From positions 1 to 64,000 of the forward strand of contig NZ_JAQZAJ010000010.1 of NCBI RefSeq assembly GCF_028737195.1: a stretch of 64,000 bases of DNA, given 5' to 3'. Positions within the stretch are counted from its first letter, which is position 1. Each line of letters begins with the position of its first letter. The position numbers and the translations under genes were made by a program. Source of the stretch: Pseudovibrio exalbescens (GTDB lineage: Bacteria; Pseudomonadota; Alphaproteobacteria; Rhizobiales; Stappiaceae). The notes beneath the pieces are model-generated. The model searched no databases, was not told where the DNA came from, and was given only the letters and a program-made list of their open reading frames with translations. Positions 10,381-21,522 of this stretch are shown here, piece by piece.

Positions 10381-11559
10381 TCAGACGAACTGGCCTGCCG
10401 CATGTCCGGAGGACCATGCCCACTGGAAATTGAAGCCACCAAGGTGGCCGGTAATGTCCACCACTTCGCCGATGAAGAACAGGCCGGGCACGTCTTTAGC
10501 CTCCATGGTTTTGGAGGAAAGGGCCTTCGTGTTCACACCGCCCAGTGTCACTTCTGCAGTGCGATACCCTTCGGTGCCGATGGGCTTTACCCGCCAATTG
10601 TGAATGGCCTCCGCTACTTTATTGAACACCTTGTCAGACTGGTCGGCCAAGCGGCCTGTAAAGCCGTGATGATCGCCGATGAATGTTGCAAGGCGTTTGG
10701 GCAGCACATCGCCCAATAGGGTGCGGATGTCTTGTTTAGGGCTGTTCTGGCGACCGAGCTTGAGGGTTTCAAGCACATTGCCATCAGGCAGCATGTTGAC
10801 GCCAATTTCCTGCCCTTCTTGCCAGTATGAGGAGATTTGCAGGATGGATGGACCGGAAAGGCCGCGATGGGTAAAGAGCATTCCCTCCCGAAACCTTGTC
10901 TTGCCGAAAGAGACCACCGCATCAACTGCAATGCCAGCAAGCTCACTGGTACGCTGTTTGAGCGCTTCGTCAAAGGTGAGAGGCACCAAGGCGGCCCGAG
11001 GTGTCACAAGCGGCAGGTCGAAGCGTTTGGCAAGGTCATAGCCAAAGCTGGTTGCCCCGATCTTGGGGATTGACGGACCACCCGTTGCAACCACCAAGGA
11101 TTGGCAGCGTAACGCACCCTTGTCCGTGGCTACGCTGAAAAGTTCATCGGGTTTGTTGATTTCGCCGATCTTGGTGGAGAGTTGCACCTTCACACCCGCT
11201 CGTTCGCATTCTGACAGCAGCATGGAGATGATGTCTTTGGCGCTGGTATCGCAAAACAATTGACCCAGTGTCTTCTCGTGCCATGGGATGCGGTAGGAAT
11301 CGACCAGCGCAATAAAGTCTTGCTGGGTGTAACGCTTCAGTGCGGAAACGCAAAACCTCGGGTTCTCGCCCAAGAAGTTGGCTGGCGAGGTGTGCAGGTT
11401 GGTGAAGTTGCAACGCCCGCCGCCTGAAATGCGAATTTTCTCTGCTGGCTTGCTGGAATGGTCAAGCACCAGCGTCTTGCGGCCGCGTTTTCCGGCCTCA
11501 ATGGCACACATCAGGCCAGCAGCACCGGCACCCAGAACGATCACGTCAAAGTCTTGCAT
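10381..11559 (-). CDS. HI0933/BaiN-family FAD-dependent oxidoreductase
   Basis: This 392-residue flavoprotein begins with the dinucleotide-binding motif VIVLGAGAAGLMCAIEAGKRG and has RISGGGRCNFTN near residues 45-56, the family hallmark. It ends with LFFIGEVVDITGHLGGFNFQ, the second FAD-contacting segment. Members of this family (YhiN, BaiN) are soluble flavoproteins. BaiN reduces bile-acid intermediates in gut clostridia, but that function should not be assumed here. It is monocistronic, with a related TIGR03862-type paralogue at 14023-15231. Confidence 0.85.
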   Translation of the reverse strand: MQDFDVIVLGAGAAGLMCAIEAGKRGRKTLVLDHSSKPAEKIRISGGGRCNFTNLHTSPANFLGENPRFCVSALKRYTQQDFIALVDSYRIPWHEKTLGQLFCDTSAKDIISMLLSECERAGVKVQLSTKIGEINKPDELFSVATDKGALRCQSLVVATGGPSIPKIGATSFGYDLAKRFDLPLVTPRAALVPLTFDEALKQRTSELAGIAVDAVVSFGKTRFREGMLFTHRGLSGPSILQISSYWQEGQEIGVNMLPDGNVLETLKLGRQNSPKQDIRTLLGDVLPKRLATFIGDHHGFTGRLADQSDKVFNKVAEAIHNWRVKPIGTEGYRTAEVTLGGVNTKALSSKTMEAKDVPGLFFIGEVVDITGHLGGFNFQWAWSSGHAAGQFV

Positions 11560-14022: not shown

Positions 14023-15231
14023 TCACTGTGTTCTCAAATAGGCTTCTATGCCAGACGCAGCAGCCGCTGCGGTGGCGAATACACCTTGCAGCAAGTAGCC
14101 ACCGGTCGGTGCTTCCCAGTTCAACATTTCTCCACATGCGAACACGCCAGGCTTCTTTTTCAGCATGAAGGCGGCGTTGATCTCATCAAAATGAAGACCT
14201 CCTCCGGATGAGATCGCGCGATCTATCGGGCGAGGGGCCGCGAGTGTCAGCGGTAACGCCTTTATGCGCTTGGCAAGCAGGTGTGGGTCTGATGGCACCT
14301 CTCCCGCTTCGCGCAGTAGCGCTACAGCCAAAGATGAAAGATTGACCGACTTTCGCAAATGGTTTGAAAAGCTGTTTTTCCCGCGCGGCTTTTGCAGTTT
14401 TGCGACTATAGCGCCTTCGGTCAGGTCTGGCTTCAGGTCCAGCAACAGCTCCGTTTTGCCGCTCAGCGAAATAGCTTCCCTGATCTCGGCGGAAAGCGCA
14501 TAGATACCGCCTCCTTCAACACCAGTAGCGTCAATCATGATCTCGCCGGTGATCCTCCGCCTCTGATGGGTCAGGCCGATCTTTTTCAAGGGATGACCAG
14601 AGAACTTTGCTTGAAAATACTCGGAGAATTGAACCTCAAAGCCGCAATTGGACGGAACGAGCGGCGCGCTCTGAATCCCTTCTCTGGCGAAAGGCTCCAG
14701 CCAGTCCCCTTTTGAGCCGAGGCGCGCCCAAGAGCCACCGCCCAATGCCAGTAGCGTCGCGTCGCTGGAAACAACATGTTCAGTGCCATCAGAGTCGGTC
14801 GCTAGAAATGAGCTACCTTCAGCAAAACTTTTCCAAGTCCAACCAAGTTTGAAGTTCACACCCTGCGCGTTGAGGCGTCTTAGCCACAAACGCAACAAGG
14901 GAGAGGCCTTGAAACTGACGGGAAATACCCGACCACTTGATCCAATAAACGTCTCCTCGCCAAGCTCAGTACACCACTGCTGTAGCGCAGCCGGAGGGAA
15001 AGCTTCAATCGAATGAAGCAGTTGAGGCTCCTGCGGCCGGTAGCGGGTGAGGAACTGCTCCAACGGTTCGCTGTGGGTAATGTTCAAGCCGCCGCGTCCG
15101 GCAAGCAAAAACTTACGAGCGACAGATGGCATGCGGTCATAGACCACGACGTTAAAGCCTTTGGCGCTCAGTTGCTCGGCAGCAAACAGGCCGCCGGGAC
15201 CCGCTCCGATGATGGATATGGTTTGTGGCAC
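14023..15231 (-). CDS. TIGR03862-type flavoprotein (HI0933 superfamily)
   Basis: This 402-residue protein begins SIIGAGPGGLFAAEQLSAKG (FAD-binding Rossmann motif) and has RKFLLAGRGGLNITHSEP, the variant family signature. It ends with GVFACGEMLNWEAPTGGYLLQG. Members belong to the same superfamily as the protein at 10381-11559 but form a separate group whose reaction is unknown. It stands alone, convergent with the candidate sRNA. Confidence 0.83.
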   Translation of the reverse strand: MPQTISIIGAGPGGLFAAEQLSAKGFNVVVYDRMPSVARKFLLAGRGGLNITHSEPLEQFLTRYRPQEPQLLHSIEAFPPAALQQWCTELGEETFIGSSGRVFPVSFKASPLLRLWLRRLNAQGVNFKLGWTWKSFAEGSSFLATDSDGTEHVVSSDATLLALGGGSWARLGSKGDWLEPFAREGIQSAPLVPSNCGFEVQFSEYFQAKFSGHPLKKIGLTHQRRRITGEIMIDATGVEGGGIYALSAEIREAISLSGKTELLLDLKPDLTEGAIVAKLQKPRGKNSFSNHLRKSVNLSSLAVALLREAGEVPSDPHLLAKRIKALPLTLAAPRPIDRAISSGGGLHFDEINAAFMLKKKPGVFACGEMLNWEAPTGGYLLQGVFATAAAAASGIEAYLRTQ

Positions 15232-15730: not shown

Positions 15731-16735
15731 ATGTCTGATAAAGTTGAATGGAAAACAATAGAAACCGGTGCGAACTTTGCCAGTGCGTCTGGCCTGACCG
15801 CTTCGGGAAAAACGGAAACGGAGTTTTCCCGTCAGGAGAACGCTTCCGTGGCCGAAGTTTCACTCTCCAAGAAGTTCGCGTCGGTCCATCTCGAAAGCCT
15901 GGACCTTGAGTATGACGAGGATACCAAGGCGCTTTGGGTGTTTATGAAGGGCCGCGGTCGCCCTTGTTTCTCACCGGAGTTGCTCGGTGATCTGGCGGGC
16001 GCTCAAGTGGTCATCAAGCGATTGTATGAGACCTACAAGCGCGCAATGCCAGAGCCAATTCGCTACAACGTAATCGCATCCCGGAACCCTCACATTTACA
16101 ACCTGGGTGGCGATCTCGGTCTTTTCATTGATCTCATCAAGAGGGGAGATCGCTCTGCCCTTGAAAAGTATGCCGTTGACTGCATCGATGTGGTCTATGG
16201 CAATGCTGTATCGCTTGATCTGCCGTACATCACGATTGGTCTTGTACAGGGTGATGCACTTGGTGGCGGGTTTGAAACGGCTCTGTCCTGCGATGTTATC
16301 ATCGCAGAGCGACAGGCAAAGTTCGGCCTTCCGGAAGTACTGTTCAACCTGTTCCCGGGAATGGGGGCCTACAGCTTTTTGTGCCGAAAGGTTGATGGCC
16401 ATCGCGCAGAAGAGATGATGTTGAGTGGCCGTCTTTACAGCGCCGAAGAGCTACAGGAGCTGGGCCTCGTCGACCTCGTGGTAGACGAGGGGCAGGGCGT
16501 CGCCGCCACGCAGGATTACATCCAGAAAAACGGGCGCAAATACAATGCCCACTCCGCGATCTATCGCAGTGGCCGCGCCGTTCAAGCGATTACCTACAAA
16601 GAGCTGCGGCAAGTGGTCGACATCTGGGTTGAAGCCGCCATGCAGTTGTCGCCCTCAGACCTTCGCAAGATGGAGCGTCTCACCAAGGCGCAAAATCGTT
16701 TCGAAAGCGGTGGCCGTGGGACTCTGGCGCTTTAA
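15731..16735 (+). CDS. rpfF: DSF synthase, RpfF-like crotonase
   Basis: This 334-residue crotonase-fold enzyme resembles Xanthomonas RpfF along its whole core. Matching segments are GRPCFSPEL, NLGGDLGLFIDLIKRGDR, LVQGDALGGGFETALSCDVIIAE, GLPEVLFNLFPGMGAYSF and LYSAEEL, then GLVDLVV. The two catalytic glutamates of RpfF (Glu141 and Glu161) correspond to Glu182 and Glu202, with the same 20-residue spacing. RpfF makes cis-2-unsaturated fatty acids, the diffusible signal factors, from acyl-ACP by combined dehydratase and thioesterase action. An N-terminal extension of about 40 residues is Ser/Thr-rich and not in Xanthomonas RpfF. The gene converges on an RpfC-like kinase 9 bp away, as in Xanthomonas, which makes plain enoyl-CoA hydratase unlikely. 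ATG 15731 is chosen over the in-frame GTG at 15719 by its ribosome binding site. Confidence 0.85.
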   Translation: MSDKVEWKTIETGANFASASGLTASGKTETEFSRQENASVAEVSLSKKFASVHLESLDLEYDEDTKALWVFMKGRGRPCFSPELLGDLAGAQVVIKRLYETYKRAMPEPIRYNVIASRNPHIYNLGGDLGLFIDLIKRGDRSALEKYAVDCIDVVYGNAVSLDLPYITIGLVQGDALGGGFETALSCDVIIAERQAKFGLPEVLFNLFPGMGAYSFLCRKVDGHRAEEMMLSGRLYSAEELQELGLVDLVVDEGQGVAATQDYIQKNGRKYNAHSAIYRSGRAVQAITYKELRQVVDIWVEAAMQLSPSDLRKMERLTKAQNRFESGGRGTLAL

Positions 16736-16744
16736 AACGCCAGC

Positions 16745-19348
16745 TTAGCTGCCGAGCCGGATGGCTTCCAGATCTTCCGGCTGGGCAACGCTAACAACGT
16801 AAGCGCTCAGCCCGTCTCTTGCCTGGTCCAGCGCCTTGGTCAGTTTTGACAGGTTGCCCGCGCCGTTTTCCAGCAGGTCTTGAGCGCGCGCGGTTTCCCA
16901 GCTCTGGCACAGGCGTGAAACCTCAAGCGCGCCAATGTTGGCAGAGGCCGAGTTCATGGCGTGGGCCTTGTCACGTATCTTGGTGACATCGCCCGCCTCC
17001 ACGGCCTTGCAAATCTCGCTGTAGAGAACGCGTGCATCCTCCAGATAGTCACTGATAAGGCCGACAACGAACTCTTCGCCGCCCAGATTGGCGAGGTTGT
17101 CGAGGCAGGCGTAGTCTATCGTGGCGCCTTTAAGGGCCATTTTCTTGCCCAAGGGAGCCACGTTGACTGACTGCGCATCTTGGCGTTCCGGACCGGATGG
17201 CGCAACGGTTCTGCGACCAAACTCCGTTACTGTCCTGTCGATCATCTTGAGAAGGACATCCGGTTCGATAGGCTTGGTTGCGCAGGCGTTTGCTCCCGCC
17301 TCTATGGCGTTCCGTGCCGCCGCTGGTGTTGCGTCGGCTGTAAGGGCAATGATTGGAATGTGGTCCTCACCATGCTCCGTCAAGCGGTGCAGTTTGATGG
17401 CTTCAATCCCATTCACCACAGGCATGTTCAAATCCATGATCGCCAGATCATACAGACCTTCTTCCAGCGCATCCAACGCTTGCTCACCATCGCTGACGAT
17501 GTGGCATTTGTGACCGCCGCGTTCCAAGATCTTTTCGATCACACGCTGATTGGTCTTGTTGTCTTCAGCAATCAACAAAGACAACGCCTTGTGCTGTTGG
17601 TGGACCCGGTCTTCAAGCTTTGTTGGCGCTGCTTGTGAAGGCAACCGGGCACCTGCAATCTGCATCACTCTGAAGAGTTCATCATCCAGCTTGTCGTAGT
17701 GCAGGATTGTCCGGCAGCGGCTATAGACGCTTTCGGGATCTTCAAGCTCGCTGTCAGTTGTCTTGAGCAGCACCATGTGAGTGTCAATCAATCGATCCGG
17801 GGACTGGATCGCGTGCCCTAGAACTTCAATCGGGCCGTAGACACAGCGTTCGTCGACGATCAGAATAGCTTCGCGCACGCCGAGTGTCGTAAGCTCGCCC
17901 AGCATCGCCACGGCATTGCTTGGCGTGTCAACGGTGCGCACTTTCAAGCCAAGGCTTTCGAGGCGCTTGCCCATTACATCCAAGGTCTGCGGATCCTCGG
18001 AGACAACGAAGGTAACTGCCTCGGCAAAGTTGAGGCGTTCACTGCGGGTGTAAACAGCGCGTTGAACCGGCACTTCTAACCGGAAAGTGCTGCCCGAGCC
18101 GACCTCACTATGCACCGAAACCGAGCCGCCCATACCTTCGATAACTTGCTTGACGATGGTCAGCCCCAGCCCCGTCCCGCCAAATCGATCTACAATGGTT
18201 TCATCGGCTTGGGTAAAGCGCTCAAAAATCCGGTCTTGTGCTTCTTTGGAAATGCCAATGCCGGTGTCCGCTACCTCCAACACCAGCTTTGCGCTGCCGT
18301 CTTGGGCGGTCCTTTGGAATGCCCGCACCGCAATGTACCCGGAATGGGTGAATTTCACAGCATTGCCGGTCAGGTTGATCAGGACTTCCTGCAGATGACG
18401 GCTGTCGCCAATCAGTTCCGGTTCTACTTCCGGGCTGATGAACTGACAGAAGCGTAGTCGCTTTGAGTGTGCCTGACTGCCAACAATCTGCGCCGTGTCA
18501 CTGAACAGGGTATCAACGCTGAACAGGTTGGTCTTGATGTCCAGCGCCCCTGCTTCAATGCGGGAGAAGTCGAGAATGCCATCAATAAGCGATAGAAGGG
18601 AGCGGGCAGAGCTTTTGATGGTGGTCGTCATGTCCCGCTGCTCACCATCCAGCTTTGTATCTTTCAGCATGTCGCCCATGCCGATGATGGCGTTGAGCGG
18701 CGTGCGCAATTCATGGCTCACAGCGGTAAGGAACTGTGTCTTTGCCTGACTGGCCGCTTCCGCCGCGCGTTTCGCTTCTGACAGGTCGCGGATCAGCTTG
18801 GCCGAATAAATTGGAACAATGATGAGGCACGCCAGCAATCCCCAGCCGAGCTGCGCCTGCTCGCGCCAATAGGGCGTGGTCAGCACAAAAGAGAACCCGA
18901 TGACGGAGATCACACAGGAGATCACAAGGTACTTGATGCCAAACCGGAAACCATTGCCGAAGATCACCCAAAGATAGATGGGGAACGTGATCGCCACGAA
19001 CTGGCCGCCCGCATACATTGCGAAAGTCAGCATGCCCAAATCCATGAGCATGGCAAACAAACGGCGCATGAAGTTTGGCTTCTTTGCCCGCACAACGAAG
19101 AAGAACAGCACAGCGGTACCGATGGCAAATGCAGCGAGGATCTTAGTGATCAGCGCATGGCCATCTATGAGGTAGCGAGCATCGGAAAGCGCATAGGGAA
19201 GCAACACCATCGCTATGATCACGCGGTTGAGGCTCATCTCCGTCTCACCGCCGGTCATAGTGTTGGAGCGCTTGAAGGCAGCGCCAAGGTTCCGTAACCC
19301 TTCGCCCATAGCTGTAACTACGGTGTCCAGGGTTTTGTTCAGTCGCAT
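16745..19348 (-). CDS. rpfC: RpfC-like hybrid sensor histidine kinase (5TM-HisKA-HATPase-REC-HPt)
   Basis: This 867-residue kinase has a five-helix membrane sensor (about residues 40-187). That sensor resembles the DSF-binding input of Xanthomonas RpfC: RRLFAMLMDLG, WVIFGNGFRFGIKYL and TTPYWREQAQLGWGLL match RpfC segments. Then come HisKA with His212 (SHELRTPLN), HATPase (Asn329, DTGIGIS at 361, GGTGLGLTIVK), a degenerate receiver-like region (about 444-565), an intact receiver (about 590-710, Asp639), and an HPt domain with His796 (KAHAMNSASANIGA). In Xanthomonas, RpfC senses DSF and also binds RpfF. Gene order (rpfF convergent with rpfC) is the same here. The extra degenerate receiver makes it longer than RpfC (about 726 residues). 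The start at 19348 is tentative. Confidence 0.83.
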   Translation of the reverse strand: MRLNKTLDTVVTAMGEGLRNLGAAFKRSNTMTGGETEMSLNRVIIAMVLLPYALSDARYLIDGHALITKILAAFAIGTAVLFFFVVRAKKPNFMRRLFAMLMDLGMLTFAMYAGGQFVAITFPIYLWVIFGNGFRFGIKYLVISCVISVIGFSFVLTTPYWREQAQLGWGLLACLIIVPIYSAKLIRDLSEAKRAAEAASQAKTQFLTAVSHELRTPLNAIIGMGDMLKDTKLDGEQRDMTTTIKSSARSLLSLIDGILDFSRIEAGALDIKTNLFSVDTLFSDTAQIVGSQAHSKRLRFCQFISPEVEPELIGDSRHLQEVLINLTGNAVKFTHSGYIAVRAFQRTAQDGSAKLVLEVADTGIGISKEAQDRIFERFTQADETIVDRFGGTGLGLTIVKQVIEGMGGSVSVHSEVGSGSTFRLEVPVQRAVYTRSERLNFAEAVTFVVSEDPQTLDVMGKRLESLGLKVRTVDTPSNAVAMLGELTTLGVREAILIVDERCVYGPIEVLGHAIQSPDRLIDTHMVLLKTTDSELEDPESVYSRCRTILHYDKLDDELFRVMQIAGARLPSQAAPTKLEDRVHQQHKALSLLIAEDNKTNQRVIEKILERGGHKCHIVSDGEQALDALEEGLYDLAIMDLNMPVVNGIEAIKLHRLTEHGEDHIPIIALTADATPAAARNAIEAGANACATKPIEPDVLLKMIDRTVTEFGRRTVAPSGPERQDAQSVNVAPLGKKMALKGATIDYACLDNLANLGGEEFVVGLISDYLEDARVLYSEICKAVEAGDVTKIRDKAHAMNSASANIGALEVSRLCQSWETARAQDLLENGAGNLSKLTKALDQARDGLSAYVVSVAQPEDLEAIRLGS

Positions 19349-19371
19349 GGGCGAACGTCCGTCTGTGGTTG

Positions 19372-21522
19372 TCAGGTGCTTGCTACAAGCCAGCGGTGTT
19401 TTGTCTGGACCAGATCACGGAACTCATCAGCTGGCATCGGTCTGCCATAGTAATAGCCCTGGCCATACCGACATCCCGCCTCGCGCAGATATGCGGCCTG
19501 CTCTGGCGTCTCGATGCCTTCGGCAACCACGTCCAGTTCCAAACTCTTGCCCAGTCCGATAATCGCGTTTGCAATCGCCGCATCGTTCGGATCCGTTTCC
19601 AGATTCTGAATGAAACAGCGATCAATTTTCAAACCGTTAATGGAGAACCGGCTAAGGTATGAAAGTGATGAATACCCAGTGCCGAAGTCGTCAATAAACA
19701 CGCGGGTGCCCAGATCCTGTATCTGCTTCAGGTCCTTTGCGACTGCCTCCGAGCCGTGCATCACGATGTGTTCGGTAATCTCGATTTCCAACCCATCAGC
19801 TTTCAGCCCGGTGTCGTTCAGTGCATCGGTGACCAGTTGCGGCACGTCGCCTTTTCGAAACTGGGTCGGAGACAAGTTCACTGCAACGCGCAGGTCGTCG
19901 TACCCCATTTCATGCCAGCGCTGGGCTTCTTGGCACGCAGCGGTGATCACCCATTCGCTGATCGGAATGATCAGCCCGGTTTCTTCGGCAAGAGGCAAAA
20001 AGACAAGCGGCGAAACCACGCCATGTCCTGGACGATTCCAGCGCAACAGCGCTTCCGCCCCCACAATGCTGTTATCGTTCAGCCGAACCTGAGGCTGGTA
20101 GTAGAGTTCGAACTGGTTGCCAAGGATGGCTTGGCGGAGCTCGCCCTCCAGCGCCATACTCTCGCGTGCATCATGGTCCATTGTGGTTGAGAACAGGCGA
20201 TAAACGTTGCCGCCTTCGGCTTTGGCTTGATACATCGCCATGTCAGCGTGGCGCAAAAGTTCTTCGCTTCCAACGCCATCTTCCGGGTAGCGCGTAATGC
20301 CGATACTGGCCCCGGTTCGAAGCTCTTGCCCGTCGATGTAGAAGGGTTCTTCCAGCGTTTCAACAATGCGGCGCGCCAGTGCCAGAGTGTCATCCGAGCC
20401 GCGAATGTCAGTCTGCAGGATCGCAAACTCATCCCCGCCAAGGCGGGCGACGAGATCCGTTTGTTTCACGCAGCTTTGGAGGCGTTCACCCACCATCTCG
20501 AGCAACCGGTCGCCAGATCGGTGCCCCAGCGCATCGTTGATTGGCTTGAAGCGGTCCAGATCCAGAAAATGAAGCGCAAACGTCTTGCCGTTCTTCCGGC
20601 AGGCATTGATCTGCTCTTCAATTCTTAGGGTCAGCAACGTCCGATTTGGCAGGTCTGTAAGGCTGTCGTGGTGTGCAATATGCAGCAAATGCGCTTCTGC
20701 GCGCTTGCGATCTGTGATCTCCGTCGATGTGGTGACAACGTGCGTGGTGTTGCCATAGGGGTCCAAGAGCGGGCTTTTGGTCACCAGAAAGTAACGGATG
20801 TGGCCCTGAGGATCTGTAATCTCAACCTCATATGGGGGTAGGGCGCGCCCGGTAGAAAAAATCTTGGCGTCGAGTCGCTTGTTGCGCTCATGGGCTGTTT
20901 CTTGCAGTTCATTGTAAAAGTCCAAGCCGACCCACTCGTGGGAAGGCTTGTTCATGAACGCGCCCCAAGCGGCATTGGCAAAAGCGCAGCGGCCGGAGGT
21001 ATCTACGGCGGTGACCATGGACGGCAAGCTGTCAATCACCTGGCCCAGCCGCTCGATTGAGCTACGCAGCTCTTCCTCATGCTGACGCTCGACGTTGATC
21101 AGCTCGCGCTCCAGCGTGGAAGCACGAGATTTCGCAGCGATCTGCTCTTTTCGCAGTGCCAACAGGTTGCGTGCGCGGCTCAGAAACTCGTTGTGGTCAA
21201 CTGGACTCTGCAGAAAATCCGTGGCTCCCGCTTCAAGTGCCTTGATGCGAAAGGTGCGGTCAGAAAACGCCGTGATAACCATGATTGGGACATCCTGACA
21301 GTCCTCAATCGCTCTGATGTGAGTGGTCAGGTCTGCCCCGTCCATCTCCGGCATGCTGTAATCTGTGACAACCAGATCCGGGACCTGCTGCTCCATAAAC
21401 CCAAGTGCTTCGGATGGCGATGCAAAGCAATGGGTTTTTACATCTCCCGCGACCGCTAATGCCAGCCGGTTCAAGATGTTACGGTTAATAGCACGGTCAT
21501 CGATGATAACGATGATCGACAT
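19372..21522 (-). CDS. Response regulator REC-PAS-GGDEF-EAL, cyclic-di-GMP turnover
   Basis: This 716-residue protein carries a receiver (Asp8, Asp9, phospho-acceptor Asp54), a PAS domain (about 158-272), a GGDEF domain with intact GGDEF at 362-366, and an EAL domain with EAL at 490-492 and DDFGTG at 611-616. Both catalytic domains look active, so the protein could make and break cyclic-di-GMP. The usual receiver Lys is replaced by Ser107 in FLQSPVDHNEF. The gene is 23 bp upstream of the rpfC-like gene on the same strand, the position of rpfG in Xanthomonas, whose product is REC-HD-GYP instead. The PAS-GGDEF-EAL part recalls Burkholderia RpfR, which is also encoded next to rpfF. ATG 21522 is preferred over GTG 21534. 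Confidence 0.88.
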   Translation of the reverse strand: MSIIVIIDDRAINRNILNRLALAVAGDVKTHCFASPSEALGFMEQQVPDLVVTDYSMPEMDGADLTTHIRAIEDCQDVPIMVITAFSDRTFRIKALEAGATDFLQSPVDHNEFLSRARNLLALRKEQIAAKSRASTLERELINVERQHEEELRSSIERLGQVIDSLPSMVTAVDTSGRCAFANAAWGAFMNKPSHEWVGLDFYNELQETAHERNKRLDAKIFSTGRALPPYEVEITDPQGHIRYFLVTKSPLLDPYGNTTHVVTTSTEITDRKRAEAHLLHIAHHDSLTDLPNRTLLTLRIEEQINACRKNGKTFALHFLDLDRFKPINDALGHRSGDRLLEMVGERLQSCVKQTDLVARLGGDEFAILQTDIRGSDDTLALARRIVETLEEPFYIDGQELRTGASIGITRYPEDGVGSEELLRHADMAMYQAKAEGGNVYRLFSTTMDHDARESMALEGELRQAILGNQFELYYQPQVRLNDNSIVGAEALLRWNRPGHGVVSPLVFLPLAEETGLIIPISEWVITAACQEAQRWHEMGYDDLRVAVNLSPTQFRKGDVPQLVTDALNDTGLKADGLEIEITEHIVMHGSEAVAKDLKQIQDLGTRVFIDDFGTGYSSLSYLSRFSINGLKIDRCFIQNLETDPNDAAIANAIIGLGKSLELDVVAEGIETPEQAAYLREAGCRYGQGYYYGRPMPADEFRDLVQTKHRWLVAST

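Follow-up and report, generated by a model that had tools for sequence, protein, structure and literature searches.

Gene organization of the locus

The 64,000-nucleotide stretch of Pseudovibrio exalbescens DNA analysed in this work (positions 1 to 64,000 of contig NZ_JAQZAJ010000010.1, hereafter the window; host genome of 4.39 Mb, from the family Stappiaceae of the order Hyphomicrobiales) contains an rpfF-like gene, an RpfC-type kinase gene and a response regulator gene which together form one three-gene module related to the diffusible signal factor (DSF) systems. All three are real genes. The rpfF-like gene (15731–16735, + strand, starting with the ATG at 15731) encodes a 334-aa crotonase of the DSF-synthase type. 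It is convergent with the gene of an 867-aa hybrid sensor kinase (16745–19348, − strand), their ends being separated by 9 bp. The regulator gene (19372–21522, − strand; 716 aa from its ATG) precedes the kinase gene on the same strand, with 23 bp in between, and the two probably form an operon. A preliminary description of this DNA, made from the sequence alone, had correctly placed a response regulator gene upstream of the kinase and did not mention its output domains, which were identified here as PAS-GGDEF-EAL.

The RpfF-like synthase

The assignment of the synthase was based on NCBIfam and PDB matches and on an RpfF tree. The protein gave 361 bits against NCBIfam NF006452, whose cut-off is 177, and matched 172 PDB sequences. 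Of the best four (2e-64 to 2e-51), 3m6m and 6dgn bear the name RpfF, whereas 7zq7 and 5fus, which matched over the same long stretch, are entered as crotonase/enoyl-CoA hydratase; the fifth was far weaker (5e-16). The positions of the catalytic glutamates 141 and 161 of RpfF from Xanthomonas campestris pv. campestris are occupied by Glu182 (codon 16274–16276, + strand) and Glu202 (codon 16334–16336, + strand), as PDB alignment and residue check confirmed and as the preliminary description had pointed out. In addition, Gly127 and Gly179 correspond to the thioesterase/oxyanion glycines 86 and 138, given the one-residue offset of the reference row. The list of catalytic and thioesterase residues was taken from the available part of PMC9040811.

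The RpfF tree comprised 69 rows, namely 66 RpfF sequences and, from the genome of the window, three ordinary hydratases, leaving out the long-branch rows L179 and L184 and further rows for thinning. The three hydratases branched outside all 66 RpfF rows (support 99/97). That the crotonase could be an ordinary enoyl-CoA hydratase adjoining an unrelated two-component pair is compatible with its crotonase fold; both the tree and the PDB matches side with RpfF, however, and the linkage to an RpfC-type kinase is conserved, so that this explanation is extremely improbable. The window RpfF grouped with its own genus (eight rows, 100/99) and then with one further row of its family (nine rows, 99/96). 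The nearest named RpfF locus belongs to P. exalbescens (78% identity), followed by those of other Pseudovibrio.

RpfF proteins from outside the Alphaproteobacteria formed a clade of their own (100/99) of 12 rows, made up of ten genomes of the phylum sample and of L106 and L122, whose record titles are Gammaproteobacteria and Krumholzibacteriia, respectively. In the tree rooted with the hydratases this clade was nested among alphaproteobacterial rows, with a poorly resolved deep order. A recent transfer from Xanthomonas, one of the origins that had been considered for this system, is not favoured because the non-alphaproteobacterial RpfFs stand apart and the window row goes with its genus and family. 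The tree would thus argue against a recent import without bearing on the first origin of the gene.

Among 72,556 plasmid records, 14 also contained RpfF relatives (E <= 1e-30); large replicons of Methylobacterium, Bosea and Sphingomonas were among these. RpfF was found as well in L080, L089 and L122, with record titles Terriglobia, Mycobacterium sp. and Krumholzibacteriia; L089 shows the arrangement of the Inquilinus loci and may be mislabelled.

The RpfC-type sensor kinase

The kinase contains HisKA and HATPase domains (18062–18745, with His212), its own REC domain (17240–17575) and an HPt domain (16814–17059, with His796), all on the − strand and all above the Pfam cut-offs. Its membrane sensor region (residues 33–190; 18779–19252, − strand) shows homology to the corresponding region of Xanthomonadaceae-type RpfC; the domain E-values, obtained with a small set of open reading frames (ORFs), ranged from 5e-29 to 3e-32. 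A sensor profile built from 12 alphaproteobacterial rows picked up the proteins of L165–L170 at 100–111 bits per domain. We call these Xanthomonadaceae-type because L165–L167 come from the sole genomes above the NCBI cut-off for RpfF.

The kinase had been described as an RpfC-like hybrid kinase with five transmembrane helices, REC and HPt. The RpfC homology and both domains were verified, and the number of helices is less certain. The AlphaFold model of the sensor region (window 18719–19318, mean pLDDT 92.9) has an N-terminal helix followed by six long helices, and the hydropathy profile is compatible with five or six membrane helices, five being the number described for RpfC. With six instead of five, the N-terminal segment would lie on the other side of the membrane.

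One or two extra short ORFs, which hold mainly the RpfC input region and are reminiscent of Xanthomonas rpfH, are placed between kinase and regulator in Inquilinus-type loci (L069:11749-13741, L084:4142-5053 and L089:11755-13472). In L165–L167 such an input region precedes RpfC within a single ORF of 910 aa.

The response regulator and the ancestry of its receiver

The domain order of the regulator by Pfam is REC (21175–21513), PAS_4 (20701–21033, also recognized by hhalign), GGDEF (20206–20676) and EAL (19438–20142), all on the − strand; the mean pLDDT of its AlphaFold model is 84.6. Searching the PDB with this model retrieved, within the 50 matches listed, unspecific structures of the GGDEF-EAL and PAS-GGDEF-EAL kinds, which were uninformative about a ligand of the PAS domain. 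The GGDEF motif is intact, as are EALLR and DDFGTG in the EAL domain. Asp8, Asp9, Asp54 and Thr84 of the receiver are invariant across 12 aligned regulators. Among 63 distinct regulators of the family, the GGDEF-site pattern read GGDEF in 49 and SGDEF in two, DDFGTG was matched in 53, and an EAL pattern was present in all 63, though this match may fall elsewhere in the protein. The window regulator, with its intact motifs, would most likely act as an EAL phosphodiesterase.

The same genome has 48 receiver matches and 10 EAL matches, and HD-GYP (PF13487) was not detected in it or in 11 other module-bearing Pseudovibrio genomes. In all, this domain was present in 22 of 46 genomes tested: none of 12 of the genus, all eight with an RpfG-type regulator outside the class, and 14 of 26 other alphaproteobacteria, in which a separate HD-GYP protein could consequently act in parallel.

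The origin of the receiver was studied with two trees. The first had 71 rows and separated 38 module and RpfG-type receivers (100/100) from 28 own-genome receivers (26 distinct) and five RpfC receivers. As its decoys came from the own genome only, the analysis was repeated with harder ones. For this, 29 receivers that scored among the best in 80 genomes were added and the own-genome decoys were cut to eight; of the receivers added, L216 is a module RpfG that the set had contained before. This second tree (125 columns, unrooted) gave a 49-row clade (100/100) containing 30 module receivers without HD-GYP (99/98 by themselves), the RpfG-type receivers together with the HD-GYP protein L240, and nine more rows, five of them tagged HD-GYP and four with an untagged output. 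Seven of the eight rows of the neighbour group (99/89) were also tagged HD-GYP. REC-GGDEF-EAL proteins (L226, L238, L241) and PleD-like proteins (L242, L243, L188) stayed outside the 49-row clade. The HD-GYP receivers are not a single clade, as L228, L231 and L236 fell outside it, beside a REC-GGDEF-EAL protein. The window receiver thus groups with RpfG receivers and apart from the sampled REC-GGDEF-EAL and PleD-like ones, indicating that an RpfG-type receiver had its output replaced by another. HD-GYP is likely to be the older output of this receiver, although the trees do not amount to proof.

The exchange is coupled to a change in the receiver itself. The residue before the conserved proline was Lys in seven and Arg in two (L106 and L109) of nine distinct HD-GYP module receivers, whereas it was Ser, Thr or Ala in the 74 distinct receivers without HD-GYP, none of which had Lys or Arg. 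The module offers a natural experiment on the consequences of an output swap for the receiver, with Lys/Arg in 9/9 distinct receivers with HD-GYP and the lysine lost in 74/74 without it.

Distribution and linkage of the module

RpfF was present in 20 and the sensor in 19 of 61 genomes of relatives, and all 19 sensor genomes also had RpfF; within Pseudovibrio, 12 of 16 genomes carried a DSF-synthase-type gene. A sample of 289 genomes of the class gave 19 with RpfF, 18 with the sensor and 17 with both (hypergeometric P of 3e-24, not phylogeny-corrected); the sensor without RpfF was seen in G491. The sensor and a REC-PAS-GGDEF-EAL regulator surrounded RpfF in 16 of the 19 relatives' neighbourhoods. 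The three short of the full set were L042 (sensor beyond the stretch), L044 (frames with stops) and L046 (no sensor).

The named loci were the best 80 of at least 509 confirmed ones and were picked by similarity to the query, so that this sample leans to alphaproteobacteria; it has several species in common with the 19 neighbourhoods, and some stretches are cut at their ends. The full set was present in 54 of these 80 loci. HD-GYP outputs in the loci were tagged by sequence pattern, Pfam serving as a check for three proteins. The regulator was REC-PAS-histidine kinase in eight, REC-histidine kinase in one, REC in three (HD-GYP in L106 and L109, PAS with HisKA_2 in L125) and REC-PAS in two; two loci had a sensor without a regulator in the stretch, and ten lacked a sensor in the stretch. 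As the three-gene set recurs in 16/19 neighbourhoods and in 54 of the best 80 loci, its association is beyond chance. In addition, 92 of 97 loci with both rpfF and kinase (duplicates included) were convergent, four divergent and one on the same strand.

From the 62 genomes matched in the phylum search, 20 regions were picked. Eight had an RpfG-type regulator, two a REC-PAS-GGDEF-EAL regulator (one from the order and one from the class of the window), one a sensor without regulator, and nine no sensor.

The regulators of the REC-(PAS)-histidine kinase type were those of L094, L095, L096, L100, L101, L110, L114, L128 and L133, whose records are titled Rhodospirillales, Kiloniellales, Rhodospirillaceae or Alphaproteobacteria metagenome-assembled genomes. 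A different layout was seen in L046:8467-11820 (G049), L119:7863-11472 and L181:6018-9410, where RpfF is convergent with a PAS-GGDEF-EAL-type protein of 776–790 aa (PAS_7-GGDEF-EAL by Pfam on L046) and RpfC was not found within the stretches. Their RpfFs cluster (100/99, with L183), as do their GGDEF-EAL parts (97/96, with a second L074 protein). This layout is a second alphaproteobacterial arrangement. Finally, L025/L044 (G030, of the same family as the window) have a stop codon within the rpfF frame and another within the sensor frame; the module of G030 is perhaps decaying, or these are sequencing errors.

Comparison with known DSF systems

Two core designs of DSF perception, RpfC/RpfG and RpfR, are distinguished in the available part of a review (PMC4504480), which also describes the Xanthomonas gene order. 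The window module and the Xanthomonas system share a homologous synthase, a hybrid kinase of the membrane that carries both REC and HPt, an RpfG-type receiver and, as far as that part shows, an rpfF gene convergent on the kinase gene with the regulator gene upstream of the latter. The gene order had been said to copy the Xanthomonas arrangement; the convergent order of rpfF and kinase agrees with this, but the system is not a copy, as the regulator is REC-PAS-GGDEF-EAL and not RpfG. A canonical RpfF/RpfC/RpfG system that just lies in an alphaproteobacterium would explain the identical order and the homology of RpfF, RpfC and receiver. However, the output is PAS-GGDEF-EAL instead of HD-GYP, PF13487 was undetected in the genome and the receiver lysine is absent, which makes such a system very unlikely. 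The sensor also differs from that of Xanthomonas in four of five DSF-binding residues. The rpfFCG cluster of Leptospirillum similarly has RpfF, RpfC and a response regulator outside the Xanthomonadaceae, but the available part of PMC8357829 gives its regulator as an HD-GYP RpfG and describes a uni-directional cluster. The nine loci with REC-(PAS)-histidine kinase regulators have RpfF, RpfC, a receiver of the same clade and the same absence of the lysine, and differ in having a histidine kinase output instead of GGDEF-EAL (checked with Pfam on L094 and L100).

The window module also resembles the RpfF/RpfR (BDSF) system of Burkholderia and Cronobacter in that a DSF-type synthase is coupled to a PAS-GGDEF-EAL protein. 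The idea that this protein is the DSF receptor and the kinase incidental would fit its domain order, which is that of RpfR. An hhalign comparison of module and RpfR PAS domains gave a probability of 95.5% at 23% identity, values which PAS domains generally may reach, and K249, a lysine shared by all 12 aligned regulators, is located at roughly the position of Asn202 in RpfR. Nevertheless, of the RpfR ligand residues S169, N172, Y183, R187 and N202 the module PAS keeps Tyr183 alone (hhalign, by eye), whereas L176 has all five at the published numbers. RpfR-type binding of DSF by the module PAS was consequently rejected, bearing in mind that this is a by-eye reading of a 23%-identity alignment. 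In the GGDEF-EAL tree, three RpfR-type proteins (L176–L178) formed their own clade (100/100), separate from the one holding 21 of 23 module regulators (95/92), so that an origin of the regulator's GGDEF-EAL in the RpfR clade is unsupported. As L124 and L182 lie outside both clades, a single origin of all module GGDEF-EAL outputs is not proven. Moreover, a receiver replaces the FI domain, the module has a membrane kinase and the sensor of this kinase co-occurs with RpfF. The regulator therefore lacks the FI domain, most DSF-contacting residues of the PAS and the RpfR-clade GGDEF-EAL of RpfR, and we consider an RpfR-type system unlikely.

That Alphaproteobacteria possess RpfC has been published before, since a KEGG-based survey (PMC8895600) states, in its available part, that the RpfC-RpfG pair occurs in alpha- and betaproteobacteria; the terms EAL and HD-GYP are absent from that text. 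We recognized no description of the REC-PAS-GGDEF-EAL version, or of DSF in Pseudovibrio, in the open-access literature as far as it was available, subscription papers being mostly uncovered.

Proposed function

Taken together, these data make it fairly probable that the locus is an RpfF/RpfC-type module for a DSF (cis-2-unsaturated fatty acid) with another output in place of that of RpfG. The synthase, sensor and receiver share ancestry with RpfF, RpfC and RpfG, and the genes, their order, the exchange of output, the loss of the receiver lysine that goes with it and the linkage across Alphaproteobacteria are observed. By analogy with the characterized systems we infer the signal identity, its sensing, the phosphotransfer, the direction of the cyclic di-GMP (c-di-GMP) change and the phenotype. 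According to its homology and catalytic residues, RpfF would dehydrate 3-hydroxyacyl-ACP and release a cis-2 fatty acid, which the kinase would sense at its membrane-flanking N-terminus. Phosphate would then pass via the REC and HPt of the kinase to the receiver of the regulator encoded next to it, a relay suggested by the domains, the conserved His and Asp, the adjacency and the co-occurrence of the genes, and the regulator would alter c-di-GMP through its PAS-GGDEF-EAL part. In this way the module pairs the sensor and receiver of the RpfC/RpfG design with output domains of the RpfR design, from outside the RpfR clade, and it is spread over many alphaproteobacterial lineages.

Several observations weigh against this interpretation. 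The synthase gave 245 bits against the RpfF equivalog NF053515, whose cut-off is 550, and as consequence it is not an RpfF equivalog by the NCBI rule; that cut-off was passed in just 3 of 398 genomes of the phylum. RpfF occurred without the sensor in three genomes (G049, G088 and G146) and in the ten named loci mentioned above, some of whose stretches are cut at the ends. Neither GGDEF nor SGDEF was found by pattern in 12 of the 63 distinct regulators, and DDFGTG was not matched in 10. The conserved lysine is absent in the window receiver (Ser106, in FLQSP), which keeps Asp54, and in all 74 regulators without HD-GYP, so that phospho-activation may be altered or absent. Finally, the segment of the kinase aligned to residues 17–22 of RpfC, where DSF binds, reads GGETEM (residues 33–38; 19235–19252, − strand). 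The available part of PMC5391125 describes R15, D17, S18, E19 and Q22 of X. campestris RpfC as lying beside the membrane and essential for DSF sensing. Only Glu19 is kept in the window kinase (E35), and R15, D17, S18 and Q22 are replaced by M, G, G and M; accordingly, its ligand may be other than the Xanthomonas DSF. The analogy with Xanthomonas is weakest at this segment and at the lysine-less receiver.

The sensor could thus answer another fatty acid or membrane cue, the RpfF product serving elsewhere, for instance in inter-species signalling. The alteration of the DSF-binding segment in the genus and the genomes having RpfF without sensor fit this proposal. However, synthase and sensor genes are tightly linked over much of the class, and 96 of 98 sensors (near-duplicates included) have Glu19, against 54 for R15, 64 for D17, 39 for S18 and 24 for Q22. 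RPDSEH is retained in a number of other alphaproteobacteria. We regard a separate cue as rather unlikely.

An extension of the exchanged-output interpretation is that the module represents a third DSF architecture in Alphaproteobacteria with two inputs, the kinase reading extracellular and the regulator PAS intracellular fatty acid; this can be put forward only as a speculative proposal, of about the same low probability as a separate cue. The PAS may use K249 about where RpfR has a DSF-contacting asparagine, and the lysine-less receiver may be an altered switch joining both inputs to c-di-GMP. The chassis of RpfF, RpfC and receiver may likewise be a socket for HD-GYP, PAS-GGDEF-EAL or PAS-histidine kinase outputs.

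Neighbouring genes

The genes flanking the module were mostly not common to its relatives, even within the genus. When compared with the window ORFs, the exceptions were L028, L037 and L039, three of the 19 neighbourhoods, which have relatives of both window genes at 10381–11559 and 14023–15231, upstream of rpfF. We take these two genes to be flavoprotein-like.

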